A stretch of 64,000 bases of DNA from Nitrospirota bacterium (GTDB lineage Bacteria > Nitrospirota > Nitrospiria > Nitrospirales > Nitrospiraceae), in NCBI GenBank assembly GCA_030684575.1, contig JAUXVD010000018.1, forward strand, positions 1 through 64,000. The letters are read 5' to 3'. Below the pieces are notes generated by a model. It was given only the letters and a program-made list of their open reading frames with translations, was not told the DNA's origin and ran no database searches. Numbering within the stretch: the stretch's first letter is position 1; every line of letters starts with the position of its first letter. A program made the translations under genes and the position numbers. This document shows, in pieces, positions 1 to 15,062 of this stretch.

Positions 1-78
1 AAGGAGCCTGACCTGAAGCGGGCCCTGGGAATGAACGCGAACCATGACGGCATCGACGGAGCCCGGAAGGCTCCCTAA
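1..78 (+). CDS. C-terminal tail of an ORF, probably transposon-encoded
   Basis: An open frame enters from the left edge and ends at a TAA at 76-78; only 25 residues, basic and hydrophilic, are visible. It lies just inside what looks like the right end of an insertion sequence (repeats at 100-134), so it is probably the last gene of that element (in IS21-type elements, the helper ATPase IstB). The visible residues are too few to assign a family, so identity is inferred from position only. Confidence 0.35.
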   Translation, partial: KEPDLKRALGMNANHDGIDGARKAP

Positions 79-137
79 CCCGGAGGACGGACCCCACAGT
101 TCTAATTGTCGCCAACCATCAATTCTAATTGACGTCA
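1..137. mobile_element. Right end of an IS21-like insertion sequence
   Basis: Two copies of a 12-base motif, TTCTAATTGTCG (100-111) and TTCTAATTGACG (123-134), sit just before a CA at 136-137. Read on the other strand, the element begins TGACGTCAATTAG. Multiple short repeats inside the ends and TG...CA termini are typical of the IS21 family. Immediately outside, at 138, a helicase reading frame resumes in mid-motif, so 137 is the likely insertion junction. The left end and target duplication lie outside the window, so the family is inferred. Confidence 0.55.
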
Positions 138-1142
138 GACAGCTTGATCGTCGTCTCCTGTTACTACAAGGGTAGCCTTTTCCGCTAGGCATTTGATTAG
201 CATGAAATCCAACTTATTTATGTCTTGGAACTCATCAACAATAATCTCTGTAAACTGCCCATGAATACCACTCAGGAGTTGTGGACTCTTTTGGAGAGAC
301 CGCAGGGCACGCAGTTTTTGGTCATCAAAGTCCATGCATCTGTCTTGCTGAAGCGCTGACTCGTAGGCTTTAAAGAGCCAGTAGAGGGCCTGAATGACCT
401 TCTTGATGGAAGTGGCGTCACCCCCCAGATGAGACAAGAGTAAATCTTTGATCTCTTTCCGAAGTGTGGTTGTGATGAAATCCGCAAGATGCTGAGGATT
501 TATGTCTCTCGGGTCGAATATTTGATTTTTCAACAAGCTATATAAGTCTCGGTAGAATCTCCTCTCCACATTGGCGGGTAGGACCGCATACTGTTCTGGT
601 CCTCTTCTGCGAAGTTCTTCTAATCCTTCACGAATGATACTTCGTTGGCGATGCTCGGGTACAATGGTTTTGTGCTCTTCGGTGAAATACTCGCGAAGGA
701 GACCCCATCCAAAAGCATTTAGAGTAGAGATTTTAAGCCCATCAAGTTGTGCGGGGTATTGCAGAAGTTGGTCTGCCAGTTTGTTCCTAAGTGATGACGC
801 GGCAGCGTTGTCAAAGGTGAGAACGAGTATCCGTTTGGGGTTTACGCCGTTCTTGATACGCGTCAATACGCGATTGATTATTGTCTGAGTCTTGCCGGAC
901 CCTGCGGGAGCAACTAGACGAATAGTGGAATCGACGGCTTCAATAATTCTGTTCTGGTAGGGATCGGCGGAAGGCAGGAATGTCCGCAGAGCTTCCCTGA
1001 TATCAACCGATGCTTCATTGATGCCACGTTGAAGTTCATCAAGTGCTTCTGAGCGAAGCTCAAAATTTTCAGGAAACTCAATATGAGAATAAATATGATC
1101 TGAAGACATGGCGCTATTGACTCGGTAGGCCTTCCGAAGCAT
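135..1142 (-). pseudogene. UvrD/Rep-type DNA helicase, cut by a transposon
   Basis: This is the N-terminal half (335 residues) of a superfamily 1A helicase. It shows a Q-motif-like PYQNRIIEA near residue 61, Walker A APAGSGKTQT (78-87), the motif II box VDEFQD (about 302-307) and motif III GDDDQA. The protein stops one residue after motif III, and its TGA (135-137) is formed by the terminal bases of the neighbouring insertion sequence. Motifs IV-VI, needed for ATP hydrolysis and DNA translocation, are missing. Family members usually exceed 600 residues, so this copy is very likely inactive. The rest of the gene may lie left of the element. An ATG at 1109 is an alternative start; neither start has a clear ribosome site. 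Confidence 0.85.
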
Positions 1143-1200
1143 ACCTTTCGAGGCGATGCGATTACCACCCTAACTTGGAGGCAGGCTCAATCTGGCAATA

Positions 1201-1392
1201 TTACGGGCAATTACTTGCAATGTGGTACCCCTTAGATTCAGCCTCTGCCGTACTCGCAAATTCGACTCGGTTGTGCGGAGCTACTTGACTATAATTCGGA
1301 CAATCAGGCCGGTGGTAGATGTGGCTGCGATGGTTGCCGATGATGGGATAGGGTGACGTGGAGGCGGACGTATCGGGTTCGACGGCTCCCAC
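1201..1392 (-). pseudogene. Orphan C-terminal domain of a thermonuclease-like protein
   Basis: These 63 residues closely match the tail of the secreted nuclease at 7283-8035: both share SPYPI(I/V)GN(H/R)RSHIYHRP, then DCPNYSQ(V/I)AP, and both end in NCP. The domain resembles the Ada-type metal-binding tail (His and Cys residues around HIYHRPDCPNY) that often follows nuclease domains. Here no nuclease domain precedes it, and the frame upstream runs into the end of the lipoprotein gene without recognisable sequence. It starts with GTG and has no convincing ribosome site. It is probably a remnant of a duplicated or deleted nuclease gene; a small stand-alone protein is less likely. Confidence 0.6.
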
Positions 1393-1442
1393 CAGTGGCG
1401 ATCCAAGTATCTTTGCAAGACAAATTATCTTCCTCGTCGGTC

Positions 1443-1955
1443 TTACTTCGGCTGGCCCAGAATGTTACCGCCCACTCTTTCTCTGGTTGAATCTACTGTA
1501 ATCACGATCGCCGCCTGGATATCCCGGCCTTCGTTTCCCCGTATCCGTATGATCCACGCTTTATCTCCAGGATTTTCTGGAACTGTTTCGACTAACTCGA
1601 TTTGTGACCTTGAGGCATCTGGCTTTCCAGGGACTTGGGCATAGGCGCGCAGGGTATACTCAACCGGCTTTTCTTCCTTGGAGATGTGATAGATCGGTCC
1701 ATTTGTTGGAAGAATAGGGAAGAATCCCTGGAGGGTCGATCCTGTGTAGACTTGCATGAAGTTATATAATTTAGACCCACCTTCTGACGTATAGTAGAAC
1801 AACGTCACATACCCTTTAGGCGTATGGAATTTGACTTCATCATTCATGATGCGAGGGGTAAGTGGTTCGCTTGGGGGCTTCTCTCGAACTTCCTGCACTT
1901 GGGCACACCCCACCAGAACCACACACACCGCTACTACCAGCCTGCTGAACATCAT
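1443..1955 (-). CDS. Hypothetical lipoprotein
   Basis: This is a 170-residue protein with a type II signal peptide: a short N-terminus, hydrophobic stretch LVVAVCVVLVG and a lipobox ending LVGC with the Cys at about residue 17. It should be lipid-anchored in the outer or inner membrane. AGGAGG lies just upstream of the ATG at 1955. The mature part is hydrophilic with beta-type alternation, and no family was recognised. The downstream frame on the same strand is the orphan nuclease tail at 1201-1392. Function unknown. Confidence 0.7.
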   Translation of the reverse strand: MMFSRLVVAVCVVLVGCAQVQEVREKPPSEPLTPRIMNDEVKFHTPKGYVTLFYYTSEGGSKLYNFMQVYTGSTLQGFFPILPTNGPIYHISKEEKPVEYTLRAYAQVPGKPDASRSQIELVETVPENPGDKAWIIRIRGNEGRDIQAAIVITVDSTRERVGGNILGQPK

Positions 1956-2653
1956 GCGCCCTCCTACTCTAGAAAAGTTTCTGTAAGGTATACGAGTGTT
2001 GTAATTATGTCCATCCTAAACCAGGTAAGGAGGAAAAGTATTAGAAACCATTTCCAGGTGAGTGGCGGTCAGGCGGGCATTGCAGGGAGAAAGGATGAAT
2101 TCTGATTTTTGCGGCACGTGGCGAGTCTGTTCCTTCAAGAAGCTAAGAAAATCCACATGGATATATGCGCAACAATAATACGCATATGCCCCCGGAACCA
2201 GATACAGGAACAGTCCAATCCTCATCACGCAACACCATGCAGTTATCATCTCCTTACGAAATAAGAAAAGTGGGTCCTGAGACCCATGAGGCTAGGATGA
2301 GCCTTCAAAGGCTCTGGGAAGAGCCCTGTCTACAAAGGGTGTCGGCTTCTCGTGCGCTAAGGCGGCGTTAAATCAGTGGATGTGAGGAGGCGCAGGCATG
2401 GTCATAAACCAGATGATTGAGGGACACTCTGAATCCTGCTGCCTATGGCTTGTAAGTTGTAGATTCCCCCCACTGAGACAACAGCAGACAATATAACCCG
2501 CGGGGGAACCGACCATTGCCTCAAACGGTGATAGACATGGCTTGGAAGTGGCTCACCTGTTCCGGTAGTAGAGAGGCAGCAGAAAGAACTGGGTTGATCG
2601 ATCTAGGAGGATGGATTAGAAGTGAGGAGGAAACTTCACATCAGAGGACACCC
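1956..2653. other. Gene-poor spacer of about 700 bases
   Basis: No convincing gene is seen here. A minus-strand frame at 2016-2249 (77 residues, hydrophobic and cysteine-containing N-terminus) has an AAGGAG directly abutting its ATG, which is too close for a normal ribosome site. Plus-strand frames in this stretch have no coding signature. The spacer presumably holds the promoters of the divergent lipoprotein and SIR2-like genes. Confidence 0.5.
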
Positions 2654-3715
2654 ATGACCGAACAGGTTAGATCGTTATCTCCCGCGAAGACCATTCTCCT
2701 CACAGGAGCAGGGTTCACGAAGAATTTCGGCGGATACTTAGCCAGTGAAATGTGGGAGGCTATTTTCAATCAAACAGAAATCAGTGAATGCGAGCCACTT
2801 CGATCTTGCCTGTTACAGATTGAGACCTTGAATTTCGAAAAGGCATATGACCAGATTTTGTTCTCTGGGAAATTCCACTTGAATGAACAAATGATCTTCA
2901 AGCGTGCCCTGAGAGCCGCATATGAGGAACTCGACTCATTGGTGCTTCAGTACACGTTGAGTCATCAGGGCTTTGTCGATTATGTGTTTCGAGAACTTAT
3001 TGTTCGCTTCAGGGGGCAGGTAGAAGAGCGGGGGTTTCTTTTTACCTTGAATCAAGACATGTTCGTCGAGCGGTTCTTTCACTCAGAGAATTTCCGACTC
3101 ACGCTCCCTGGCCTCAATAACCCAGCTTGGTTTAACCTTAATAAGTCGCAATCTCCAGCTAAAGAATACTTGGTCACAATCCCGAGCGATACTGATGACA
3201 TTCAGAAATTGAAACATGCTTTTTCGGATGAGCGTTCCGAGAGTTTCGTATACGTAAAACTTCATGGTTCATATAACTGGTTTGGGAAACATGGTGGTGA
3301 TGTGATGGTCGTGGGGAATGCGAAAACTGAAGCTATCGAAGGTGAACCTCTATTGAGGTGGTATCAGGAGTTGTTCCGAGAAGCCATCAACGAGCCTGAT
3401 CGGAAGTTGGTTGTCATCGGGTATGGCTTTGGTGACGAACATATCAACAAAGAAATTGCCGACGCAATCGCGAAAAACGGCTTGAGGCTTTATGTCATTA
3501 GTCCGATGGAACCTAAGAGCTTTCGAGACATACTTTGCCCCGTGCATGGTGTCATGGAGCGGGTTCCACAAAATTTCAGTATACAGACGAATATATGGGA
3601 GGGTTTGGCAGGATACTACTGTGCTTCTGTAACAGACCTTTTCAGCACGGCCATCTTGGGTGGTGGTCCACCCCCAAGAGCTAAATCGCTCCTTCGTCAG
3701 CTCGATTTGATTTGA
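2654..3715 (+). CDS. SIR2-like domain protein, possible NAD-consuming effector
   Basis: A 353-residue protein of the bacterial SIR2-like group. The nucleotide-binding start ILLTGAGFTKNFGG is near residue 13, a LFTLNQDMFVE segment resembles the sirtuin asparagine-aspartate motif (about 130), KLHGSYNW is near 202, and VVIGYGFGDEHINKEI is near 254. The last motif is characteristic of SIR2-like proteins that deplete NAD in phage defence. The ATG at 2654 is chosen because the TTG-started extension to 2516 has no conserved sequence and AGGACA precedes this ATG. No membrane segments are seen. It converges on the AAA+ ATPase at 3913-5202, with a hairpin between them. A defence role is inferred from the family, not shown. 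Confidence 0.75.
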   Translation: MTEQVRSLSPAKTILLTGAGFTKNFGGYLASEMWEAIFNQTEISECEPLRSCLLQIETLNFEKAYDQILFSGKFHLNEQMIFKRALRAAYEELDSLVLQYTLSHQGFVDYVFRELIVRFRGQVEERGFLFTLNQDMFVERFFHSENFRLTLPGLNNPAWFNLNKSQSPAKEYLVTIPSDTDDIQKLKHAFSDERSESFVYVKLHGSYNWFGKHGGDVMVVGNAKTEAIEGEPLLRWYQELFREAINEPDRKLVVIGYGFGDEHINKEIADAIAKNGLRLYVISPMEPKSFRDILCPVHGVMERVPQNFSIQTNIWEGLAGYYCASVTDLFSTAILGGGPPPRAKSLLRQLDLI

Positions 3716-3854
3716 CGATCCGCGGTTTAGGGAGCCGTTTTCGTGACCCTACTCAGGCCTACTGGAACTCAATGGGGCCAACGAGAACCAAGAGTTAGAG
3801 AAAGCTGGAACTTTTCACATCCTGATCTCCCAATACCACACGCCGACCGTTTAG

Positions 3855-3883
3855 ATGGTCGAAAAAACAACCGTTTTGACCAT
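3855..3883. terminator. Hairpin between convergent genes
   Basis: ATGGTC-g-AAAA (3855-3865) pairs with TTTTGACCAT (3874-3883), giving a ten-pair stem with one bulged base. It lies between the stop of the SIR2-like gene (3715) and the stop of the convergent ATPase gene (3913). The A and T stretches could act as a weak bidirectional terminator; there is no long U tract beyond the stem. Confidence 0.45.
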
Positions 3884-3912
3884 TCTGCTTCTACTGGTGA
3901 TCGGTTCTACGG

Positions 3913-5202
3913 TCAGGATGAGGAGCCATTATGCACAGAGTCAGCTGGAATGGGCACCAAACCACTGGCTGTATGACTCTGCGTGTAACCCTTTATCCAA
4001 ACTGCAAACGATTTGCTAGGTAAACGATATGACCCTGATTTGCCCTCTTTCGCTATTATGATATCTCGTTTTTTCAAAGCGGCTATAGCATTGGTGAGAG
4101 TTGATTCCTTAATTTTAGCAGCCTTTCGTATTTCCTCCTTACTCACCCAACCATCCAAATGGTCGCTCATTGCCCTAAGAACCTCCCTGTACTCATCTGA
4201 GCCTATCTGATCAAAATATAGATCGTGGAAATATTTCACGCCGAGTTGCTGAAAGGCACCGTTTTCCTTGAAGGCACCATCAAAAAAGTCTTTGACATCA
4301 ATCGTGTTATCCTGATCAGCATCAAAGGCCGAAGAGGCGAACTGTTGAATGAACTGAGGATATCCTTCTGAAAATGTAGCAATCAAGTTCTCAGCCTCGC
4401 CTGTAATAGAAACCTCAAGGTCATTCTTGACTTTAGCTTCATCCAATCCTTTCCGAATGACCTGTATCCGCTCATCAGGGAAAAGTGGCCCGAGCGTCAA
4501 AACCTGAAAGATTCGCGGGGACGATTCGTGGCTTCGCTGCAACTTTTGAATGAGGACGGGTAGACCGGCAAGTCCAATTGCGATCCTGGAGCACCCCCGT
4601 TTTGTTAGTCGCTCAGTGAACACCTTGACAAACTCCCCTAGATTGGCGCTATGCGGTGGTTTATCCGCTTCGTCAATAAGGATCAGGATACCGTCCCGCT
4701 CTGTACTACCCATAGCGGAAAGTGTTCGCTCTATTGTGTAAGTTAGTTCATCCAGTAGGTCTTGTGGTCGGGGGGCATCATCTCCCTTTGTGTATTTCAC
4801 TCCTACCCCTGCAACGTTCACCTCCCATCGAGCCAGAAAGTCCCAAGCGGTCTTAAAGGTTTCCTTGGCCTGATTCTGAGCTGCAACGACTCTTTGGAGT
4901 TCGGCCCCTATTTTTCTGATGATGTCTAAGTAACTATTTGATGGGGATAGCTCGACATGCACGACAAGAAAATTAAAAGTTCCACAGCTGATCGACCCAA
5001 TCTCACCCCTTGCTATGCACTGGGTGTAGAACAGGAGGGAAGATTTTCCAATCCCTCGCTCCCCATGGATCAGGAAGTGAGATGCATTATCGTTCTTGGT
5101 CTGGAAGAGGACGCGTTCTAAAGCAAGAATTTCTTCTACTCGGCCGGAAAACATACCAGGGGTCACAATGCTGCCTGGTCTAAAAGGATTGTAGCGGGGC
5201 AT
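3913..5202 (-). CDS. AAA+ ATPase of the ORC/Cdc6-like type with winged-helix tail
   Basis: A 429-residue protein with an N-terminal PFRPG...FSGR segment typical of ORC/Cdc6-like and STAND-like ATPases. Walker A is GERGIGKSS (47-55), Walker B is ILILIDEAD (172-180), and a sensor-type segment IAIGLAGLP lies near 212. The C-terminus has a winged-helix-like SKEEIRKAAKIKESTLTNAI. A DADQDNTIDVKD stretch (about 306-317) resembles an EF-hand calcium loop. AAGGAG lies 8 bases before the ATG. Such ATPases act as nucleotide switches in replication, transposition or defence modules. It converges on the SIR2-like gene. Exact role unknown. Confidence 0.75.
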   Translation of the reverse strand: MPRYNPFRPGSIVTPGMFSGRVEEILALERVLFQTKNDNASHFLIHGERGIGKSSLLFYTQCIARGEIGSISCGTFNFLVVHVELSPSNSYLDIIRKIGAELQRVVAAQNQAKETFKTAWDFLARWEVNVAGVGVKYTKGDDAPRPQDLLDELTYTIERTLSAMGSTERDGILILIDEADKPPHSANLGEFVKVFTERLTKRGCSRIAIGLAGLPVLIQKLQRSHESSPRIFQVLTLGPLFPDERIQVIRKGLDEAKVKNDLEVSITGEAENLIATFSEGYPQFIQQFASSAFDADQDNTIDVKDFFDGAFKENGAFQQLGVKYFHDLYFDQIGSDEYREVLRAMSDHLDGWVSKEEIRKAAKIKESTLTNAIAALKKRDIIIAKEGKSGSYRLPSKSFAVWIKGYTQSHTASGLVPIPADSVHNGSSS

Positions 5203-5708
5203 TGTAGTAGCTCCTTGCCTTCAAGGTTATTCGCTAAGTCGCTAAAGAATTTGTTTTTTGAACAGGCGGAAGGATACGTCAAAATCCTGGGAAAATCGAC
5301 TTCTCGTGGCATGAGTTTGGAGAGGGGTTTTTGACCTCTGTGTGCAGAATGACTAGACAGGCTGAGAAGACAGAGGGTGGGTTCTGTTCTACAGTACGAA
5401 GTAGTGAGTCAAGCAGGAATCGAACTAGAAACAGTTTCGGTCGTAAAACGGTCGCATAGCAGACCTACTTTCCGCTCGTTCCCTCTCACCCAACCTCACT
5501 CTTTCTCAGGTCACAACTCGTTGACATTCTCGCATAAATCCTGTCGAAACCGCGTCAGCGTTGAGGATGCTTGGTGTACCACAAGTCAAATCCCGCCTTT
5601 GGCCCCACGACTCGAAAAGCAGAGCGTGAGTGTCCGATCTGTCCATGGAATTGATTCGTCCTCCGAAACCCGGACACCCTCCCGCCAACGCTGCACCGGT
5701 CACACGCA
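5203..5708. other. Spacer of about 500 bases without a recognised gene
   Basis: Between the ATPase start and the stop of the barrel protein no reading frame looks coding. The long plus-strand frame at 5377-5712 has arginine- and serine-rich composition typical of chance frames. A stretch near 5411-5425 resembles a tRNA T-loop on the minus strand, but no tRNA folds around it. Confidence 0.4.
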
Positions 5709-6350
5709 TTAGAAATGATACCCCGCCCCAAATACGACGAAGTGCGCGTTGTAGTTGGCGTTGAAATCCCTGCCAGGGAAACTTGCGTGGTTGTACTTGT
5801 ATTCTCCGAAGAGGGCAATCTGTTTCGTGATAAGCACACGCGTTCCTGCCAGGACGTTTAAGCCTGGTCGGACCTCCGAGCCAGCCGTTGATGTGGGAGT
5901 AGTGAACCAAAACAATCCGAGCCCAACACCCGCGTATGGTTGAATGACTTGTCCAGGGTACCGATACACCACGTTCAAGGCCGCCGTTGTCACTCGCAGG
6001 TGGGCTCCCGGAACTGTTGCCGTTTGTGACCCTGATGGGCTACTCAGCGTGAGCTGCTGTTGCTTGAGATAGGGGGTTGCGGTATACAGTTCCGCCTCGC
6101 CACCAAAGTACTTCAGACCGTCTAGAAAGTGCCCCACCTTCAGGCCATAGATCGGGGAGTTCTGAAGACCAAGATTCGATCCTGTACTACCTGTAATATC
6201 CCCTGTCCCCCTCACGTCACTTAACTGTGCAGACAGTCCGTAACCAGCGAAACCGGCCACATAGGACTCTGCGTTCGCTGTCCGCTGAAAGAGAACCAAC
6301 GACCCACACACACTGAGGATGAGAGTCAGCCACCCCGTGAACTTGATCAT
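5709..6350 (-). CDS. Small outer-membrane beta-barrel protein
   Basis: A 213-residue protein with a cleavable signal peptide (hydrophobic 8-22, cleavage after TANA at about residue 27). It then shows alternating polar and hydrophobic strands with aromatic girdles and ends in YHF, the terminal aromatic signature used by the BAM machinery. Glycine-rich strands such as PYAGVGLGLFWF and the final FVVFGAGYHF fit the 8-strand OMP_b-brl (OmpA-like or porin-like) group. GAGGGGG precedes the ATG. It is divergent from the XRE regulator at 6523, which could control it; this is inference. Confidence 0.75.
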   Translation of the reverse strand: MIKFTGWLTLILSVCGSLVLFQRTANAESYVAGFAGYGLSAQLSDVRGTGDITGSTGSNLGLQNSPIYGLKVGHFLDGLKYFGGEAELYTATPYLKQQQLTLSSPSGSQTATVPGAHLRVTTAALNVVYRYPGQVIQPYAGVGLGLFWFTTPTSTAGSEVRPGLNVLAGTRVLITKQIALFGEYKYNHASFPGRDFNANYNAHFVVFGAGYHF

Positions 6351-6522
6351 AACGATCCCCCTCTATGAAATAGGAACCAACAGTAGTGAAATAGCGACTC
6401 ACTGAACTCCACACACGTAGTAAGTGTATCTATGGGTTCTAATTTGTCAATGTAGTACGTCTGGTGGTGGGTTAATCTAATGGGGCTGCCGCCGCATACT
6501 CCCGCTCAGGAGGGGTGGCAGC

Positions 6523-6849
6523 ATGGATATCAAACGAGCGGTAGGGAAGCGGATCAAGATCGTGCGGCAACGGAACGGACTGACTCAGGATCAACTCGCC
6601 GAACAGGTGGGGTTGAGTCCGAAATACATTAGCGGCATCGAACGAGGGGTGGAAAATCCCACCATGGATATTCTTATCCGTCTTGCCAAGGTGCTGGGAG
6701 TGGAACCGTATGATCTCTTCCTGTTTGGAGAGTCAGAGGAGAGTGAGAAGGCGTTGCGAAAAGGGATCGAGAAGATGGTACGGGAAGTGGATCGGGAGAA
6801 GCTTCAGTTGTATTTCGATGTCATGAGGAACATTCTCCAACTCACCTGA
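6523..6849 (+). CDS. XRE-family HTH transcriptional regulator
   Basis: A 108-residue protein with a classic HTH_3 domain at residues 5-63: GKRIKIVRQRNGLTQDQLAE, then LSPKYISGIERG as the recognition helix and NPTMDILIRLAKVL. The C-terminal 40 residues are charged and helical (KALRKGIEKMVREVD), probably for dimerisation. AGGAGGG lies 8 bases upstream of the ATG. It is divergently placed from the outer-membrane protein, with about 170 bases between them. Likely a repressor of phage or plasmid style; the target is unknown. Confidence 0.9.
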   Translation: MDIKRAVGKRIKIVRQRNGLTQDQLAEQVGLSPKYISGIERGVENPTMDILIRLAKVLGVEPYDLFLFGESEESEKALRKGIEKMVREVDREKLQLYFDVMRNILQLT

Positions 6850-6943
6850 AGCGACAGATGAGGGACAAACATCTGATCTTAATGCCGCGCCACAGAATTT
6901 CTATCAAATTTGTGGGTACGTTGAAGTGAGCGAGAAGACCTTC

Positions 6944-7249
6944 TTAGTGACCGATGATCCCGCTCAACCGTTGCATCTGACGGTACGCCGCCTTCGCTTG
7001 AAATCTTGATGGGTGTTTCTTGTAGTGGCACGCTTGGCAGTACCACTCCACATCGAAGGGTTTCCGGTAGTCATGATGATGGCCCTGTAATCGTTGCTTC
7101 GGGAACCTCTTCCGACAACGCTGGCAGCGAATCGGTTTCTTGACTTTCCCTGCGGCTACGGCCTTTTGGAGTTTCCGTTGGGCAAGATGGCGCTGCCAGA
7201 GCTTCTCCAACTTCTGTGGGCTCGCAAGAAGGGATCTTCGGAAGCTCAT
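6944..7249 (-). CDS. HNH-like zinc-finger protein
   Basis: A 101-residue basic protein with a CxxC...HHHDY...CxxCH pattern: RCQRCRKRFPKQRLQGHHHD (about residues 41-60), followed by YCQACHYKKH. Two CxxC knuckles flanking a central histidine cluster are typical of small HNH-type proteins found in phages and islands. The N-terminal 35 residues are strongly helical and basic, fitting DNA or RNA binding. No clear ribosome site precedes the ATG, so the start is uncertain. It follows the nuclease gene at 7283 on the same strand. It could be a nuclease or only a structural finger. Confidence 0.6.
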   Translation of the reverse strand: MSFRRSLLASPQKLEKLWQRHLAQRKLQKAVAAGKVKKPIRCQRCRKRFPKQRLQGHHHDYRKPFDVEWYCQACHYKKHPSRFQAKAAYRQMQRLSGIIGH

Positions 7250-7282
7250 CTATCAAGTCTAGCAGATCATTCGAGCATGTCC

Positions 7283-8035
7283 TTACGGACAATTCTTTGC
7301 CAACCGATATCCTGCTTCTTCTGCCTCAGCAACACTCCCAAACTCCACCCGGTTCCGAGGCGCAATCTGGCTGTAATTTGGACAATCAGGCCGATGGTAG
7401 ATGTGACTGCGGCGGTTGCCAACGATGGGATAGGGCGAAGTGGGGGTAAGAGAATCTGGTTCTGCTGTGCCTAGCCGTGGTGGACCGCGAGAAGTACTGC
7501 TATTCTCGGTTTCGCTATTCAGCGGCACCAGGTCTAACAGGTCGAGTGTCTGTCTTCGTTTGGCTTTACGGTAGACCCACGGGGGGATGGGTGCAGGATC
7601 AACCCATAAGCCTTTTTTCGCCTCTCGTGCTGCCTTCTCCAATCCTTCAAGTGCCGTATCTCCCGGCGCATACTTCCGATACCACCAACACCAGCCTTGC
7701 TTGACGAGTTCCTGATTGAGATTCATCCCATCGGACAGGATCACATCGGCAAGGGTGCGCTTGTACTTGTCGTGGCCGTGCGTCTGAACGGTGACTTCCT
7801 TTCCGAAGGCGAGGGCAGAGGCCGCCTGCTTGGCCTTCTGGCCGTAGGCTTGGCGTCTCTCCGGGCAGTCAATACCACTCAAACGGATGCGCTCCGCTCT
7901 CCCGTTGTGGAGCACATCAAACGTATCACCATCGAGGACACCGACTACAGCGCCAGTGAAATCTGGTGCGCCGGCACTCGCTGACGTGAAAAGGAAAAAG
8001 ACGATACCAAGGGAGGCTAAGAGCCGCTTGTTCAA
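7283..8035 (-). CDS. Secreted thermonuclease-family (SNase) protein
   Basis: A 250-residue protein with a signal peptide (LLASLGIVFFLFTSASAGA). A staphylococcal-nuclease fold follows (about 26-150): VLDGDTFDVL, then RIRLSGIDCPE carrying the Arg, Asp and Glu of the active site, and HDKYKRTLADV with the second Arg. A linker leads to an Ada-like metal-binding tail (HIYHRPDCPNYSQ...NCP). It should cleave DNA or RNA outside the cytoplasm with calcium. Its ATG overlaps the stop of the upstream DUF4236 gene by four bases (8032-8035), so the two are translationally coupled. The tail is duplicated at 1201-1392. Confidence 0.88.
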   Translation of the reverse strand: MNKRLLASLGIVFFLFTSASAGAPDFTGAVVGVLDGDTFDVLHNGRAERIRLSGIDCPERRQAYGQKAKQAASALAFGKEVTVQTHGHDKYKRTLADVILSDGMNLNQELVKQGWCWWYRKYAPGDTALEGLEKAAREAKKGLWVDPAPIPPWVYRKAKRRQTLDLLDLVPLNSETENSSTSRGPPRLGTAEPDSLTPTSPYPIVGNRRSHIYHRPDCPNYSQIAPRNRVEFGSVAEAEEAGYRLAKNCP

Positions 8036-9243
8036 GCTTGACCGGGCTCCTCAGTCCATCTGCTGAATGGCTCAATGGCCGTAAACCGACCGTTCTTACT
8101 CATGTCCCGTCGTAGCTCAAACTGACCGAGACTCTCAGTAACCTCTATGGCGGACAGGTTCCCAAAATTGATCTTAGACCACGCTTCACGTGTCACCCTG
8201 ACACTGTACAAGTACTCATCCGAAATCTCACCCGTGGTTTTGTTCGGGCGCTGAGAATATCCCGACAGGACAATCTCTGAAATGGTAGGAAGAGAAGCAA
8301 AGGCCTCTCCGAGAACACGAAACGCAATGCCGTGGACATGACGCATGTAGAGCTGAGATGCCTTCGTATCCGACAGCTCTTTCATGGTGACTTTCCAGCC
8401 TCGGCCTCCATAGGTGGCTGTCTTTCGTGGTACGTCCTCGATTTCTGGAAGATCAACCTCAATGACAGCGCCTTTCCCATCCTCTGATATGTTCAAAGAA
8501 ATGATGGTTTCACGCGGCCACTCTATTACTTGAAGGCGTTGCTCCAGCACCATTTGCATAGCGTCTGGCTCCTTATAGAGCCGCTCCTGAAGAAGAAGAC
8601 GACGCTCAGACTCCGACTTTTCATGCTTGGCCTTGTAGTCTCGCCAAGTATTCATTCTGTCATCGTACTCAGCTTCAGCCCTGGCATTCTCTGTTTCAAT
8701 TCGCTTTCGCACCCATGGGAAGAGGGTTCCCCAAAGACCAAATCTCTTAGGGTAGGGAGCAACGGGTGGATCGTTTGTAAAAGGAACTGGGGTATAGACG
8801 GGTTTTTGTGACGGCGACGGGGTGGCAAGATGGATCACGTCAAGCGTTTCAATTTTCTGGTTGATCTCATCACAATTCTTAATGAGCCAGGCCTTCACGG
8901 TGTCCCCTTGTTGTTTTTTAGCCAAGTCTTGAAGCGCCGGAGAAAGAGGGGCTCCATCCTGGTCCTTAAAAAGCACGGTGCCATCATCTTGTAGGGAAAT
9001 GGTTACTCCGAGGCTTACCTTCTGAGACCCGGAGGAACCTGAGCGGGACGGACGTTGAGGCGAATGGCCAACGCGATCTCTCAAGGAAAATCCGCCTGGT
9101 AGATTCACGTTCCGATAGGTCCCGCTTGGGCCGAACGACATGGAGGCACCACGCGGGCCTACGGAGAGGCCAAATCCACTCTTGCTCATGTTGAGTCGAA
9201 GACCGGGGGCAAGCTTGAAGGACTTCCTGAATCTCAATCCCAT
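8032..9243 (-). CDS. DUF4236-domain protein
   Basis: A 403-residue protein. Residues 1-52 match the DUF4236 pattern (GLRFRKSFKL.PGLRLN.SKSG, then GPRGASMSFGPSGTYRN). DUF4236 is a short beta-rich domain of unknown function common near the N-terminus of uncharacterised proteins. The middle (about 120-220) is rich in charged helix (RIETENARAEAEYDDRM), probably coiled coil. The C-terminal 150 residues look mixed alpha/beta with no known motif. No signal peptide or membrane segment is seen. GGAG precedes the ATG. The stop overlaps the nuclease start, so it may act with that secreted nuclease. Confidence 0.7.
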   Translation of the reverse strand: MGLRFRKSFKLAPGLRLNMSKSGFGLSVGPRGASMSFGPSGTYRNVNLPGGFSLRDRVGHSPQRPSRSGSSGSQKVSLGVTISLQDDGTVLFKDQDGAPLSPALQDLAKKQQGDTVKAWLIKNCDEINQKIETLDVIHLATPSPSQKPVYTPVPFTNDPPVAPYPKRFGLWGTLFPWVRKRIETENARAEAEYDDRMNTWRDYKAKHEKSESERRLLLQERLYKEPDAMQMVLEQRLQVIEWPRETIISLNISEDGKGAVIEVDLPEIEDVPRKTATYGGRGWKVTMKELSDTKASQLYMRHVHGIAFRVLGEAFASLPTISEIVLSGYSQRPNKTTGEISDEYLYSVRVTREAWSKINFGNLSAIEVTESLGQFELRRDMSKNGRFTAIEPFSRWTEEPGQA

Positions 9244-9414
9244 CGGTTTTTCTCCGTGTAAAACCTGCTATACGGTATTGTGCCTTCGTCTTCGGTACCC
9301 TGCTGCCCATCTCAATGATGCCGCCCAGCCTTACTTCTGCTTTCAGCGGCAGGGCCATGCGAATGGTAGCGGACCAAGCCAGCACAAACTTAAAGCCACC
9401 TCAGAATACAGCGG

Positions 9415-9987
9415 TTACTTTTGAGGGACTATATATGGGACCAAGGCTCTATTGAGCTGTTTATATAACTCCTCTATCCCAATCTGATCCGCCTGAGCCT
9501 GTCGTTGAAGCCTCTTTGCGAGGGCGATAGGGTATTTGTAGCTCTTCCGGTTCTTCATCATATTCAAGTCTGATACAAAAACGTCAGAACTTTTGATTTT
9601 CTGATGTGTGTTCATTACCTTCCCAACCGCTCCAACTGTCACAATCAGCCACGCTTTCTTTGACGCTTCGACTGAAAATATCGACTTCTCTGATATCAGA
9701 ATAAAATTCAGGGCTCCACGATCTGATGTTGGCAAGCACTTAGTGTTTGTATAGTCAACAAGAGCATTCATGAGATTTTCGATTTTATGGCAAAGGCCCG
9801 CTGCTTCAAGCACTTCATCAGCTAGAGCCGGAGCAGCGTAGAAAATCGTACTCGTAACGAGTAACGAAGCGAAAAGAAGTAAGCATTTAACTTTGCTCTT
9901 CCTTGTTTCGCCACAGCAATTTCCCACGTGTTTGTAGACGGCGGTGTCTTCGATAAGTCCAGGGGTTCCATGGTAAGGGGGGGTCAT
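9415..9987 (-). CDS. Hypothetical exported or membrane-anchored protein
   Basis: A 190-residue protein. AAGGAG lies five bases upstream of the ATG at 9987, supporting this start, although it leaves about 35 residues before the hydrophobic segment CLLLFASLLVTSTIFYAAPALADE. The latter looks like a signal peptide with cleavage after ALA or ADE. The mature part is basic and helical with no recognised family. A shorter form starting nearer the signal sequence cannot be excluded, but no ATG or GTG is placed well there. Function unknown. Confidence 0.6.
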   Translation of the reverse strand: MTPPYHGTPGLIEDTAVYKHVGNCCGETRKSKVKCLLLFASLLVTSTIFYAAPALADEVLEAAGLCHKIENLMNALVDYTNTKCLPTSDRGALNFILISEKSIFSVEASKKAWLIVTVGAVGKVMNTHQKIKSSDVFVSDLNMMKNRKSYKYPIALAKRLQRQAQADQIGIEELYKQLNRALVPYIVPQK

Positions 9988-10009
9988 CTGCTCTCCTTAA
10001 AAGTAAGCC

Positions 10010-10321
10010 CTACTTCTGCTTCGCCACAATCTGATCCTTGATCTTGTCGTAGGTGGCCTGCGGGATGATCTTCTTTTGCACCAGCTCATCCTTCCGCTTG
10101 TATGGGCGTCCCTTGATAATCTTGGCGGAGTAGGCATCCCCGATCCCTGGCAGGGCTTTGAGCTTGTCGGCGGTGGCGGTATTGATGTCGAGCAGTTCAG
10201 CCTTTTCGGCAGCTTGGACCACTAAGGAGCCGGTCACTGCAAAAGGTATCAGGGGGAGAGCAAGCAGGAGCACGCTTCCCAGTCCTACGCGGAGTGCCCA
10301 CCTCACGAACATTGACCCCAT
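10010..10321 (-). CDS. ComEA-like helix-hairpin-helix protein
   Basis: A 103-residue protein starting at the ATG at 10321, preceded by AAGGAGG at normal spacing; the longer frame to 10396 overlaps the upstream gene and is rejected. It has a signal peptide or anchor ([20 protein letters not shown]) and then one helix-hairpin-helix pair: [20 protein letters not shown] and [18 protein letters not shown]. The family binds double-stranded DNA; full ComEA acts in DNA uptake, while short single-domain versions are common and often uncharacterised. It is the last gene of a pilZ - hypothetical - comEA-like cluster. Periplasmic DNA binding is likely; a competence role is unproven. Confidence 0.8.
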
Positions 10322-10334
10322 AACTGCCTCCTTG

Positions 10335-10688
10335 TTAGTGCGTCGTGCCCTTAGGCAATCTCTGCCCCATTTCAATGATCCGTCCCAACCGTTCAAGCAG
10401 GTCCATCGACTGGTGCGAGGTCAGCCCATGCTTGTTGAGAAGCGCGAGGATGTCGTCAATGATCTTGTTCTCGGTCTCGGTGAGCACGTACGGCTCCGGG
10501 AAGGCCGTCTCAGGGATTCGTACATGAGGGTTCCTCCGCCGTAGCTCGTCGATGATGGTGTGAAGGTCTTGCTTGGTGCAGAGGCCCTTCTGTTCCAGCA
10601 GTTCGACCATCGCGGCGATCTCCCACATGTTGGAGATGGTCGCTTCTTCTAGGGACATTGTGTCGCGTTTGGGGCGGTCGGTGCTCAT
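10335..10688 (-). CDS. Conserved hypothetical cytoplasmic protein
   Basis: A 117-residue, all-helical, acidic protein without signal peptide or membrane segment. Segments such as [20 protein letters not shown] and [19 protein letters not shown] look like two related helical hairpins, each with LLxxxGL(C/T)(T/S)(K/H)Q, suggesting an internal duplication. It lies 20 bases after the pilZ stop at 10709 and 13 bases before the comEA-like start, so it is probably co-transcribed with both. No family recognised. Confidence 0.65.
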
Positions 10689-10708
10689 GGGCTGCTCTCA
10701 GCGGATTC

Positions 10709-11017
10709 CTATATTTGCTGCCAGAGGTATTGCTCCATCTCCTCCCGTGACTCGTCGTCAATCACGAGTGTTTCGACCCCATACTCTTCGCCTCGGACCC
10801 ATCGAACGATTCCAGCAGCTATCTAAGTCCGTTGGTGAGTCGGTAGGTTCACTGTAAGCGAACACACTTCCCCGACGCGCAGCGGCAGATTGCCAGAGAA
10901 CCGCCAGCCTGTGCCGGAGAGATTCCACACGGTGCCGTGGCCCTCAAAGAGACCGCATTGGTAGGTGACAGGGCAACAGATGGGGAAGCGACGGTAGGGA
11001 CGAACCGAGAAGGGCAT
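10709..11017 (-). pseudogene. PilZ-domain gene with an in-frame amber stop
   Basis: From the ATG at 11017 (GGAGG six bases upstream) the frame reads RPYRRFPICCPVTY, TVWNLSGTGWRFSG, then LPTHQRT and a TAG at 10823-10825. It continues in the same frame with IAAGIVRWVRGEEYGVETLV to a TAG at 10709-10711, about 102 codons in all. Both halves are PilZ: the N-terminal RxxxR and (N/S)xSxxG-type c-di-GMP motifs, and the C-terminal RWVRGxEYG strand. A single base change (for example GAG to TAG) explains the break. Unless the amber codon is read through, the protein loses its final strands and helix and is probably non-functional. Confidence 0.8.
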
Positions 11018-11310
11018 GGGGAGCCTCCAGAGGGAGGCCAATTGTAGGATGGTTACTGAGTGGTCGCAAGAGCCGACGAGGGCAAATGGGGTATTTCTGG
11101 CCGTAGCGACTTCTGACGGAGACCTTCCAGGCAGCCCGTGATGGACTGTCAAGGCTCTAGGACGCGCGTGGTAGTATGGGAAGAGTAACCATTGGCTGTC
11201 ACCTCTGTCCACAAAACTCTCTCAGGGCTTAATAGACGTTCAGGACGAGGCACGGGGAGGGGAGTCGATGATGCATCTTGCTCCGTGCGAGTCCACCGTT
11301 CGATTTTCTA

Positions 11311-11357
11311 CTCCCGGTTTCACTCCCGGTTCGCTCCCGGTTTCACTCCCGATTCCA
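11311..11357. repeat. Four-copy 12-base tandem repeat
   Basis: The unit CTCCCGGTTTCA is repeated with small changes at 11311, 11323 (11 bases, CTCCCGGTTCG), 11334 and 11346 (CTCCCGATTCCA). It lies in non-coding DNA. The near-identity of copies 1 and 3 suggests slippage or recent duplication. Confidence 0.75.
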
Positions 11358-11566: not shown

Positions 11567-11597
11567 GCAGCCTTAGGCATGCCCTGCCTAAGGCTGC
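11567..11597. terminator. Strong hairpin, possible terminator
   Basis: GCAGCCTTAGGCA (11567-11579) and TGCCTAAGGCTGC (11585-11597) form a perfect 13-base inverted repeat with a 5-base loop. It lies about 60 bases downstream of the stop of the minus-strand gene at 11656. There is no U tract, so it may be a Rho-type or processing hairpin rather than an intrinsic terminator. Confidence 0.5.
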
Positions 11598-11655: not shown

Positions 11656-12261
11656 TCAATGGGATGCGCCAGACGGGCCGACGGGTGAGGCCGACTCCCA
11701 TTTTGCGTAGAAGGGAATGCCAGTCCGTAGCGTTTCTAGGATCCGAGCACGATAGTGTTTATAAAAGAATTCGAGTTGATTTAGACGCTCAGCTCCCTTC
11801 TCGTCCTTGAACCAGTCTTTCCGTTCATGCCATTCAGCATTGAACGTCACCTCCTGCTGGTTCGGATAGAACAGCCGGCCAAGAAGTCCCATGTGCGATC
11901 GTCCGCTAATCTTCTCGAAATAATTCCGTAGATCAAATACGGCACTCCATAGCGCCTCATTCCGCCGGCGATGATTGGGACTGGGGGCATGCGGCTGTAT
12001 TTTGAAGAGATTCCTCTTCAACACTATCTGACGTCGCGCTTTCCAAGATTCGTTCAAGATCACCTTCCAATAGGGCTTCCACTGCGCCCCATAATCCCTC
12101 TGCACCCACCGTTTGATCTTCCGTTGATAGGTCGGCGACTCTTTCTCCGCGGTGAAGGGAACGTCTGTCGCGCCAATCACCCCGTGCCAGGCCATGACAA
12201 GCTCGACGAAATCGGGATCTGCTTTCATAGCCTCGATTTCTTTCCGAAGAGTGACGTCCAT
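11656..12261 (-). CDS. Hypothetical protein
   Basis: A protein of about 201 residues from the ATG at 12261 (a TTG four codons upstream is possible; neither has a clear ribosome site). It is rich in Trp, Arg and Lys, with clusters such as YQRKIKRWVQRDYGAQWKPY and FNAEWHERKDWFKDEKGAER. No signal peptide or membrane segment is seen. The composition suggests a soluble helical protein that may bind nucleic acid, but no family was recognised. It is isolated between the spacer to its left and the divergent zinc-finger gene at 12460. Confidence 0.6.
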   Translation of the reverse strand: MDVTLRKEIEAMKADPDFVELVMAWHGVIGATDVPFTAEKESPTYQRKIKRWVQRDYGAQWKPYWKVILNESWKARRQIVLKRNLFKIQPHAPSPNHRRRNEALWSAVFDLRNYFEKISGRSHMGLLGRLFYPNQQEVTFNAEWHERKDWFKDEKGAERLNQLEFFYKHYRARILETLRTGIPFYAKWESASPVGPSGASH

Positions 12262-12408
12262 CGCAATGTCCAAATTAGGGGGGCTTCCACCCCATACGAA
12301 TCGAGGTCGTGACGTGATTTACTCAGAGTAGCTGAAAGATCCGTGCTGGCGTGATGTCAACCCTACACCTTCCGCCTCGGATCTGACAATAATCTTTATC
12401 TGACTTTA

Positions 12409-12459: not shown

Positions 12460-13581
12460 ATGTGCATCTGCAGATTCTGCAGTCGAGCGTTTGAGAGTCC
12501 GCAGGCTGTGAAAGCGCATCTTCGAACATGCCGGAACTATCTGAGATCCAAGCACGGCAACGCGACGCGGGGGCAACCCTTCACCCCTCCTCTTTACAAA
12601 TCGATATCTCCGCCTCCAGGTCCCCCCACCCCAAATGAGACGGTGCAGCCCTCCAACCCCTATGCCAGTTTTGTGGACCAGATCACGCAAAAACTCGCTG
12701 ACCCTGATGAGGCGACACGGCTGAGACAGAAACGGCAGGCATTGCTCACGGGGCTATGTACCACCCTCGTGGATTGGTATCGCCCCTCGGAGGGCGTCAT
12801 CACACCTGAAATGGTCGCGGCGGCCAAAGTCGCGATCCTGGACGAACTTGGTGCGTTGGCGATCGAAGCGCTGCCGCAAGCCGAGTTGACGCTGCGTGGA
12901 GCCGCGATTCGGAACCGCATCTTTGCCCCCTACGTGTGGAGGCAACAGGAGCTGGTGGCGCACCAAAACGAGCAGCAACAGCAAGACGCACTGCGAATCC
13001 AACACGAAGCGAGCATTCGAGCGCGTCAACTCAAACGTAAAGCCATGCTCATCGAACTTGGTATCACTCGCGCGCTGCAATCGGCTTCGTCACGTGGCAT
13101 CCTCCATCGCGCCCTCGTGGTACTGGAATGGGAAGTCCGTGCGCGTCTTGAGGCCTGGCTGGTTGGCGACGAGACGGACTCACAGGTCGACGAAACGATC
13201 GAGGCCGCGATCGACCGGCCTCTTTTGGAGTGGGAGGCGCGCGTGGAGCAATATCAGAGCGCCCAACGCCAGCGCATCATGGATCACTGTCTCACGGTTG
13301 CGTTACCAGTCGTGGAAGCCGCCGTGCCGTGGGTGAAGGCGGTCGTTGTCAGAACAATCTGCGAGACGCTCGGCATGCAGTCCCCACCTTCTTCTCCACG
13401 GAATGAGGCAGGTGCCTCGTCCACGAACGAGGCGGCTCCTGACAACTCCGACGCCCCGACGCCACGCCAGGTCCGACGGCGTCGGGTGTCTCCAGCCTCT
13501 CCACCCATGGATCGTGGCGAAGCGTCTGCTACCCAGACAGCACCATCGGCGTCATCAGAAAAATGGACGGCCTCGAACTAA
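12460..13581 (+). CDS. Zinc-finger-like protein of an integrase module
   Basis: A 373-residue protein. Residues 1-25 hold a C2HC finger: CRFCSRAFESPQAVKAHLRTC (two Cys, then His and Cys at the usual spacing), a eukaryote-like finger rare in bacteria. A proline-rich linker follows (about 45-65). A long charged helical body (70-310) is rich in Arg, Gln and Glu, and the tail is Ser/Pro-rich and probably disordered. AAAGGAGA precedes the ATG. Its end overlaps the HTH gene at 13563 and the recombinase follows, so the three form one transcript. It may bind DNA as an accessory factor of the element; no family was recognised beyond the finger. Confidence 0.65.
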   Translation: MCICRFCSRAFESPQAVKAHLRTCRNYLRSKHGNATRGQPFTPPLYKSISPPPGPPTPNETVQPSNPYASFVDQITQKLADPDEATRLRQKRQALLTGLCTTLVDWYRPSEGVITPEMVAAAKVAILDELGALAIEALPQAELTLRGAAIRNRIFAPYVWRQQELVAHQNEQQQQDALRIQHEASIRARQLKRKAMLIELGITRALQSASSRGILHRALVVLEWEVRARLEAWLVGDETDSQVDETIEAAIDRPLLEWEARVEQYQSAQRQRIMDHCLTVALPVVEAAVPWVKAVVVRTICETLGMQSPPSSPRNEAGASSTNEAAPDNSDAPTPRQVRRRRVSPASPPMDRGEASATQTAPSASSEKWTASN

Positions 13582-13907
13582 ATCGTATGGTCCTTCTGAA
13601 TGTCAAAGAGGTGTCGCAGTGGCTTCAGGTGAAACCGTCGACGGTTTACCTGTGGGCGGCCGAAGGAAAGATTCCCGCGCTGAAGATTCAGGGGGTCATT
13701 CGCTTTCAGCGCGAGAAAATTGACGCGTGGCTTGCGGGGTGTCAGCTCGAGACGCCGGACCCGTCGCGACCGGCGAACCAACGCCCACGGTCCAGCGAGA
13801 TAGATGGGATCATTGCGACCGCCAAAGCCGAGGTCTATACTTCGTCCCACGGGAAACCAGACCAAGACAGGGCCACACGAAAGGGGGATTCCCATGGCTC
13901 TGTATAG
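13563..13907 (+). CDS. Excisionase-like helix-turn-helix protein
   Basis: A 114-residue protein whose residues 11-60 form a MerR/excisionase-type HTH (HTH_17): LLNVKEVSQWLQVKPSTVYL, then a wing IPALKIQGVIRFQREKIDAW. This architecture is typical of Xis-type directionality factors beside tyrosine recombinases. The start at 13563 overlaps the previous gene by 19 bases; an ATG at 13587 is an alternative. Its end overlaps the recombinase start (13894) by 14 bases. It likely controls excision or transcription of the element integrated at the tRNA gene. Confidence 0.8.
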   Translation: MDGLELNRMVLLNVKEVSQWLQVKPSTVYLWAAEGKIPALKIQGVIRFQREKIDAWLAGCQLETPDPSRPANQRPRSSEIDGIIATAKAEVYTSSHGKPDQDRATRKGDSHGSV

Positions 13908-14973
13908 ACGAGGACTAGTTTGGTGGATGCGGTTTAGTTATCAGGGACGACAGATTCGCCGATCGACGGACGTGACAGACCGGAAGCTGGCGGAGCGGAT
14001 CTATTTCAAGGTGCGGGGCCTGATGGCCGACGGCACTTGGGTGGAGACCCCACCCCCGAGGCCACACAGAACGGTGAAGGACTTGCTCGAACGGTATTTG
14101 CGAGACCACTCGGCCCCGAATAAGGCGGCGATGACGCACCGCCGGGACCACAGTCTTGCCGCGCACTTGTTGCGCGCGTTCGGCGAGATCCCCCTGGATC
14201 AGCTCCGGCCAGCGCGGCTCGCAGAATATAAAGCGAGCCGACGCGCCCAGGGGGCGGCCCCACAGACGCTCAACGCGGAGCTCATCTTGTTAGGCCATGC
14301 CTACAAGCTTGCGGTGAGGGAGTGGGAATGGGCCACCGACAATCCCGTGCTCAAAATTGCCAAGGAGAAGGTCAGGAATGGTATTGAGCGCTGGTTGACC
14401 ACGGAGGAAGAGCACCGATTACTCACGGTCTCTCCACCCTGGCTCCAGGAGATCATCGTGTTCGCGCTCCATACGGGGATGCGACGGGGGGAGATCCTGA
14501 CGCTGCAGTGGTCCCACGTGGATCTGGTGCGCCGGACGCTTACGATTCTGGAGCAGAAGAATGGCGCACGGGATACGCTGCCGGTGAATGAGACCGCGCT
14601 GGCCGTGTTACAGGCCCGCGCCACCGTACGGACGAGCGGGACGGAGACGGTCTTTCTCAATGGAGCAGGCCACCCACGGGAGGCACGGAATCTGTTGCGA
14701 GCGTTCTATCCGGCGATGCGCAAAGCGGGAATTACGCGATTCCGCTTCCATGACCTCCGGCATACGTTTGCGACCCGACTCATCCAAGCCGGGGTCGATG
14801 TCTATACGGTCCAGAAGTTGGGCCGGTGGAAAACGATCTCGATGGTGCTGCGCTATGCGCACCATCAGCCGGAGAGTTTGCGGGGCGGCGCGGAGGTGCT
14901 GGATCGACTGCGGCGAGAAAGTAGCACACAATTAGCACAAGGGGTGATGGCCTCCAGTGAAGCCGTCGCGTAA
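13894..14973 (+). CDS. Tyrosine recombinase (phage-type integrase)
   Basis: A 359-residue integrase. The N-terminal arm-type and SAM-like core-binding domains occupy about 1-150. The catalytic domain shows TGMRRGEI (first Arg), a lysine hairpin near LEQKNGARDTLP, HDLRHTFATR (His and second Arg), GRWKT at the second His/Trp position, and the nucleophile in VLRYAHH. The ATG at 13894 is preferred over the longer frame from 13804 because AAGGGGG precedes it and the family motif ALYRRGLVWWMRFSYQG begins there. Its stop lies 14 bases from the 3' end of the tRNA-Met gene, the usual target of such enzymes. Confidence 0.9.
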   Translation: MALYRRGLVWWMRFSYQGRQIRRSTDVTDRKLAERIYFKVRGLMADGTWVETPPPRPHRTVKDLLERYLRDHSAPNKAAMTHRRDHSLAAHLLRAFGEIPLDQLRPARLAEYKASRRAQGAAPQTLNAELILLGHAYKLAVREWEWATDNPVLKIAKEKVRNGIERWLTTEEEHRLLTVSPPWLQEIIVFALHTGMRRGEILTLQWSHVDLVRRTLTILEQKNGARDTLPVNETALAVLQARATVRTSGTETVFLNGAGHPREARNLLRAFYPAMRKAGITRFRFHDLRHTFATRLIQAGVDVYTVQKLGRWKTISMVLRYAHHQPESLRGGAEVLDRLRRESSTQLAQGVMASSEAVA

Positions 14974-14986
14974 CCCCTTGAAAATT

Positions 14987-15062
14987 TGGTGGCGGTGTCC
15001 CGGATTGAACGGGAGACCCGCGGCTTATGAGTCCGCTGCTCTACCAACTGAGCTACACCGCC
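14987..15062 (-). tRNA. tRNA-Met (CAT)
   Basis: On the minus strand a complete cloverleaf runs from G at 15062 to an encoded CCA at 14989-14987. The acceptor stem is GGCGGTG/CACCGCC, the D-arm GCTCAGTTGGTAGAGC, the anticodon loop CTCATAA with anticodon CAT, and the T-loop TTCAATC. The lack of an initiator-type C1-A72 mismatch points to elongator Met; a lysidine-modified tRNA-Ile is the other possibility for CAT. The 3' end faces the integrase, marking it as the likely attachment site. Confidence 0.95.

Follow-up and report, generated by a model that had tools for sequence, protein, structure and literature searches.

The 64,000-nucleotide (nt) stretch analysed here, referred to as the window, comprises positions 1 to 64,000 of contig JAUXVD010000018.1 from a Nitrospirota bacterium of the family Nitrospiraceae (assembly GCA_030684575.1), and contains a three-gene integration module beside a tRNA-Met gene. 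Genomes and contigs are designated Gnnn:Cn, with G000 the source genome and C18 the contig of the window, and fetched stretches are designated Lnnn. The plus-strand row of the module consists of a gene for a 373-amino-acid (aa) C2HC zinc-finger protein (12460..13581), preceded directly by GGAAAGGAG, which reads like a ribosome-binding site; a gene for an excisionase-like helix-turn-helix (HTH) protein of the HTH_17 type (13587..13907); and a gene for a 359-aa tyrosine recombinase, or integrase (Int; 13894..14973). The stop codon of the recombinase gene lies 13 nt from the 3′ end of the target gene, tRNA-Met (CAT), which is intact beside the island described below (14987..15062, minus strand). 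The HTH protein matched HTH_17 (PF12728; expectation value (E) 2.6e-12, 47.3 bits against a cut-off of 27) and passed the cut-off of the NCBIfam model 'excise' (TIGR01764; 35.1 against 28.8), and a role in excision is predicted. The recombinase matched Phage_integrase (PF00589; E 2.6e-35), and the catalytic positions R, K, H-x-x-R, W and Y were found on reading its translation. The spacing of 13 nt and the matches to PF12728 and PF00589 thus bear out the original prediction of a finger, HTH and tyrosine recombinase module adjoining the tRNA-Met 3′ end. The gene overlaps that had been claimed were present between the HTH and integrase genes (14 nt), but not between the finger and HTH genes. Although the HTH open reading frame (ORF) opens within the finger gene, at 13563, the start in relatives corresponds to 13587, and a 5-nt gap separates the finger stop from the HTH start in four loci (the window, G137:C178, G137:C241 and G154:C206). 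Because of this conserved start and gap, the finger and HTH genes probably do not overlap. The HTH protein (13587-13904) also gave a match of 57.7 bits to NF047737, a defence-system MAD1 HTH family with a cut-off of 80.

With 30 nt of the tRNA 3′ end as the probe and at most three mismatches allowed, two places in the genome matched, one in the window and one on contig C4. The window copy (14987..15031) is identical over 45 base pairs (bp) to G000:C4:28415-28459 and spans the tRNA from its 3′ end as far as the anticodon loop; it was taken as the attachment core. The C4 site was rejected as a second tRNA copy, since ARAGORN calls no tRNA there and the identity ends after 45 bp. An empty site was found in G160:C33, where C18-like and C4-like flanks are contiguous at one intact tRNA-Met. 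G160 was 87% identical to the right flank of the window over 6.8 kb and 89% over a further 2.6 kb, and 85% identical to the flank of the C4 copy over 1.5 kb. The match of the G159 left flank to C4 (90% over 6.7 kb) ends with the final core base; G159 was rejected as an empty site because its right side is unlike the window, and its C18-like right flank lies on another contig, behind a 5′-half tRNA copy. From the core copy, the empty site in G160 and the limit of identity in G159, the island was delimited as C18:1-15031 plus C4:1-28459, which amount to 43,490 bases with both core copies, plus an intervening piece (at least 43.4 kb). Its ends lie on two contigs, C4 and C18, which share a 77-bp sequence close to the point where each breaks off; the C4 ORF at this break presumably encodes an IS3-type transposase, judged from its translation. 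The tRNA-associated integration module that had been proposed was therefore confirmed, both by the copy of the tRNA 3′ end (45 of 45 bp on C4) and by the empty site in G160. By these sequence comparisons the element is a mobile genomic island at tRNA-Met, and its own tyrosine recombinase most likely inserted it there.

The two ends of the island share a further feature. A doubled TAGCACA motif, a candidate arm-type site of the integrase, lies on the plus strand at 14922..14939 inside the 3′ end of the integrase gene, and the pair is present at both island ends, its copies 3 and 4 bp apart. A search of the 3.79-Mb genome for TAGCACA-gap-TAGCACA (gap 2-6, no mismatch) returned only the two island ends, and the reversed control returned none; as the pattern was derived from these sites, its presence there is not independent, whereas its absence elsewhere and its presence in relatives are. 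Of 30 integrase loci examined, 25 have the doubled motif at the 3′ end of the integrase gene, down to about 48% protein identity, and we infer that it is an arm-type site of the integrase. At the left end, about 150 bp inside the island (198-199 bp with the core) were 88-89% conserved at the left ends of elements in G137 (C17) and G154 (C23); beyond this arm, the remaining compared sequence of the two did not match. At G137:C17 (L061), core copies at 757-801 and 9379-9420 lie 8.6 kb apart before the chromosomal flank, an arrangement of tandem elements at tRNA-Met. Copies of the 5′ half of this tRNA-Met (positions 35/36-76) were present at G140:C11:40467, G142:C25:149097, G159:C65:78078 and G151:C51:5782. 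From the flanks compared for the first three of these, it seems that this anticodon region is also an entry point for other elements, which carry the other tRNA-Met half.

Island cargo occupies 1..11128 of the window (genes for UvrD-like helicase, SIR2-like, AAA, DUF4236, nuclease and other proteins) and continues on C4:1-28459. Cargo was named with Pfam and PADLOC on 10 proteins each, covering part of the island. Defence-type proteins were found on both island parts: Dsr1 (1146 bits; 5094-8861), AbiH (1594-2421), an AbiU/AIPR-like protein (9619-11316) and the candidate defence protein PDC-S32 (3866-4747) on C4 (L067, G000:C4:1-20000), and UvrD/GajB-like (135-1142) and SIR2-like (2516-3715) proteins in the window.

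The N-terminus of the finger protein, MCICRFCSRAFESPQAVKAHLRTC, has the form C-x2-C-x12-H-x3-C, with the codons from C4 to C24 at 12469..12531 on the plus strand and a QAVKAH motif within them. Among nine aligned family members, including that of the window, the four ligands and F11, Q15, V17, A19 and Y27 were invariant; identities to the first row were as low as 22%, and an eight-member alignment gave the same invariants. This conservation indicates that the finger is not a chance spacing. The ratio of nonsynonymous to synonymous substitution rates (dN/dS) of the finger gene was 0.30, 0.36 and 0.29 against three close relatives, indicating purifying selection; for comparison, values were 0.17-0.19 for the integrase gene and 0.37-0.50 for the HTH gene. 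In the predicted structure, the finger (residues 1-30; predicted local distance difference test score about 93) comprises two strands and a helix with the four ligands at C2H2 spacing, and zinc binding is predicted. It is followed by long helices at residues 140-211 (72 residues) and 240-288 (49 residues), then by a disordered tail. The best sequence match among solved structures was plant SUPERMAN (1njq; E 0.027), in the finger region only, and QAVKAH occupies the place of the plant QALGGH motif. The finger had been described as eukaryote-like; this description held for its spacing, in keeping with the SUPERMAN match, but the spacing is uninformative on origin. By the standard numbering of fingers, the invariant Q15 and A19 occupy positions 2 and 6 of the helix, which contact bases, and for this reason the family may have a short DNA target in common. 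The window protein gave nothing above cut-off in Pfam or NCBIfam, and nothing in PHROGs or PADLOC.

With the finger protein as query, matches were found in four of 175 family genomes. Among 395 genomes of the phylum, a six-row profile found four genomes and a nine-row profile five, and a scan of a genome-contig collection found five loci, all in metagenome-assembled genomes labelled Nitrospira sp. For two distant matches, the genomes of their classes were searched as well (4 and 230 genomes); beyond the queries, this gave one short match, in G189, and two that were weak and partial. The latter, G470:C169 (E 4.4e-4) and G443:C16 (E 4.8e-4), do not include the finger stretch and were left out of the finger count. 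A scan of viral contigs with the window protein alone gave no match. With alignment A2, a single viral contig was found, L136 (IMGVR_UViG_3300048930_000576), and a third scan returned the same contig only. Phage and plasmid collections gave no match to the family with three different members as queries. The truncated G150:C33 was left out of alignments A1-A4, and G154:C206 out of A2 and A4.

These searches gave 12 finger loci, fragments included. At eight of them, by a plain count of neighbours, an HTH_17-type and/or recombinase gene lies within two genes, and a recombinase is present at six of the eight. The finger protein accordingly occurs beside other integration modules; a location mostly away from integrases, which would have spoken against the original reading, was not what these loci showed. 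The order finger-HTH-Int was found in the window, at G137:C178 (at tRNA-Met, with the integrase split into two ORFs) and at G154:C206 (12 nt from tRNA-Arg); at G137:C241, finger and HTH genes are followed by the contig end. Two more distant loci were finger-HTH-Int-tRNA-Leu at G423:C102 (integrase 38% identical) and finger-serine resolvase-HTH-Int-tRNA-Met at G197:C83 (integrase 45% identical). At G137:C224 (L129, 5356-6857), finger and HTH genes have an island left arm within 200 bp, 91% identical to that of C17, and no integrase was found in the first 12,000 of 21,020 bases; this arrangement could be a decayed module or an integrase-borrowing element. On the viral contig L136 (1120-5137), three genes stand in a row, for the finger protein, for a Rep_trans-like protein (E 2.4e-4, under the cut-off) and for a large serine recombinase.

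Upstream of the module, a divergent gene of 205 aa (11656..12273, minus strand) had no family match above cut-off, no PADLOC match and a dN/dS of 0.27. It was present at the three close loci with that side on the contig (C18, C178 and C241) and absent from the distant finger loci. Full-length relatives occurred at three places in the 175 family genomes, all beside finger genes, and the only other trace was one partial match of 30% that contains a stop. The divergent promoter region contains an operator-like inverted repeat, AGATCCG..CGGATCT (12337..12384), whose two halves lie 41 bp apart, start to start, in all three close loci. Farther left lie four iteron-like direct repeats of 11-12 bp (CTCCCGGTTyC type; 11305..11355), an array that 100 shuffled versions of the window did not reproduce. 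The array is also present at G137:C241, and the G137:C178 contig starts inside of that place. A second inverted repeat, GCAGCCTTAGGCA/TGCCTAAGGCTGC (11567..11597), is largely kept in three aligned loci and, on reading, is not followed by a T run.

Collectively, these data identify the region as the right end of a mobile defence-gene island and make it moderately likely that the finger protein is an element-encoded, DNA-binding accessory that controls the module. The core duplication, the empty site in a relative, the same doubled motif at both ends and the finger-HTH-Int order kept in distant relatives are read directly from the sequences; the accessory role of the finger protein goes beyond them. 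The single QAVKAH finger would read a short DNA site, the long helices could oligomerise the protein, and the finger protein might act with the HTH_17 protein to control the module. In its most likely form, this control would be regulation of the divergent promoter through the operator-like inverted repeat, and hence of the timing of island excision; the next most likely form would be that of a structural excision cofactor at the arms of the attachment (att) sites. A DNA-binding controller fits best with the place of the gene before HTH-Int, the operator-like repeat and the company of both recombinase classes. Since the family accompanies tyrosine and serine recombinases, control of the module is favoured over contact with one kind of recombinase.

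Several observations weigh against this interpretation. Integrases 85-88% identical to that of the window occur without an upstream finger gene at G154:C285 (same tRNA-Met) and G137:C89 (tRNA-Arg); the finger is therefore not essential to the integrase, and an essential partnership was ruled out. The left arm of G154:C23, an element with a presumed partner end (C285) that has no finger, is conserved to the same degree as those of finger-bearing elements, and consequently no finger-specific att segment was found. Pfam finger matches all fell under the gathering score: the best for the window protein was PF13894 (C2H2; E 0.023, 15.9 bits against 27), and one relative scored 19.2 bits against 27. 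The structural model had an overall predicted template modelling score of 0.39, and a PDB fold search with it matched no solved fold (best E 0.22, long helices only). The finger loci are also not independent, as five of the 12 are in one genome (G137) and the eight with a module nearby include the close relatives C18, C178, C206 and C241 (57-64% identical), which leaves about five separate cases in a count that may include chance neighbours. Three of the 12 loci (G137:C186, G137:C43 and the truncated G150:C33) had no integrase or HTH_17 relative beside them by BLAST in the stretch examined; at G137:C186, a resolvase-like fragment was read 3.4 kb away at the contig edge. G189:C16 was uninformative: its match covers 29 residues at a contig edge and lies antisense to the 3′ end of an integrase gene.

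Integrases of this type were far more widespread than the finger, with relatives (E 1e-60 or better) in 70 of the 175 family genomes versus four with the finger. In an integrase tree of 20 chosen rows, in which the G423 and G197 rows sit on long branches, finger-bearing and finger-less rows interleave, and well supported branches force at least four changes. Thus, as judged from this tree, the finger is a modular accessory. Among 18 fetched integrase loci, eight carried a Rep_trans-type gene, six carried Zot and four had neither in the stretch examined. The Rep_trans gene was directly beside the HTH gene in six of the eight loci and about 1.3-1.5 kb away in the other two, with PF02486 matched at E 2.4e-38 for one. 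The 14 HTH-Int loci with Rep_trans or Zot (among L110-L126), several of them beside tRNA-Met, -Arg, -Val and -Lys genes, appear as filamentous-phage-like elements. Neither Rep_trans nor Zot was found in any of the six finger-bearing genomic loci tested (the window, L064, L065, L071, L127 and L128), nor in C4:1-38000.

These loci bear on a rival explanation, in which the finger protein serves to replicate or maintain the island in its excised, circular form, takes the slot of the Rep_trans replication initiator in related filamentous-phage-like elements and has the four direct repeats as its iterons. The Rep_trans-type gene upstream of HTH-Int in eight of 18 loci would suit such a role, as would the iteron-like array beside the module, kept in G137:C241. 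However, the array was seen in two loci only, and the finger protein matched no Rep family in Pfam, PHROGs or NCBIfam; as a Rep it was rejected, with no match to Rep_trans PF02486 even at E 0.1. The viral contig L136 carries the finger plus a separate Rep-like gene, which argues that finger and Rep are not simple replacements of one another. We regard a replication role as unlikely.

It is similarly doubtful that the finger protein belongs physically to the intasome of the tyrosine recombinase, as a new directionality or architectural factor with the HTH_17 protein. The finger gene is directly upstream of an HTH_17-type gene in six of the eight module-linked loci (C18, C178, C206, C241, G423:C102 and G137:C224), as would be expected of such a partner. 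Yet close integrases at tRNA genes do without it, att segments specific to the finger are lacking, and the family also accompanies a serine recombinase at L136, where no HTH_17 gene was seen. Finally, the finger gene could be passenger cargo, for example for defence or counter-defence, riding a successful integration module without a role in recombination; its patchy presence (four of 175 family genomes), the interleaved integrase tree, the several defence genes on the island and the unlinked finger copies are consistent with this, but its constant place before HTH-Int across bacterial families, where the integrases share only 38-45% identity, and the absence of a PADLOC match for the finger protein make it an improbable explanation.

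Control of the module by the finger protein, which we favour, admits a broader and more tentative form, in which the single-finger (QAVKAH) coiled-coil family would be a portable controller of site-specific recombination modules, common to tyrosine-integrase islands and serine-recombinase viruses. We consider this possible, though on the whole not probable. If true, it would mean that a bacterial C2H2-like finger is dedicated to switching mobile elements between the integrated and excised states, and, as one family accompanies two unrelated recombinase classes, mobile elements could prove to share a general layer of regulation. The analysis also defines the island precisely, by its attachment core, its candidate arm sites and the empty site of a relative, and it draws attention to an unnamed small protein family whose genomic company links a eukaryote-style finger with how integration and excision are controlled.

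Several features of the element are shared with known systems. The literature on zinc-finger integrase accessories, Nitrospira islands and inoviruses, and bacterial QALGGH proteins contained no mention of the finger family in the titles and abstract openings of the part considered. With plant QALGGH (SUPERMAN-type) fingers, the protein shares QAVKAH, which aligns with the QALGGH motif, and the weak 1njq match confined to the finger; it differs in having C, not H, as the last ligand and in having nothing similar beyond the finger. This likeness is too short to separate descent from convergence. Ros-type fingers have a shorter Cys-His spacing. Ros/MucR proteins, described in part of PMC9779718 as bacterial zinc-finger regulators, some of which act on horizontally transferred DNA, resemble the window protein as bacterial single-finger proteins, and DNA binding by the latter is predicted. 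However, the window protein has x12 spacing, a C2HC finger, 373 aa and long helices, and gave no Ros/MucR family match.

Among mobile elements, the pSAM2-type elements of actinomycetes have a conserved pra-tra-rep-xis-int module (PMC3218068, in part), and likewise one gene is placed here before xis-int; unlike in those elements, none of the libraries tested identifies the first gene as a Rep. The annotated proteins, which cover part of the island, include none named as a transfer protein. For Frankia elements, a figure legend in the same source lists a C2H2-like protein among its gene labels. The filamentous-phage-like (Rep_trans/Zot) elements of the same bacterial family have the same type of HTH-Int, many of them at tRNA genes, but they carry Rep or Zot, whereas the finger-bearing genomic loci tested carry neither. 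The closest comparison is with Islander-type tRNA islands, a well-known kind according to the part of PMC4383910 consulted. As in those islands, an intact tRNA lies beside the integrase gene, a displaced 3′ fragment lies at the far end, and a Xis-like gene overlaps int; the difference lies in the extra C2HC-finger gene before xis-int and in the divergent gene of an unnamed family. Thus, the finger protein represents an unnamed family in a known kind of element.

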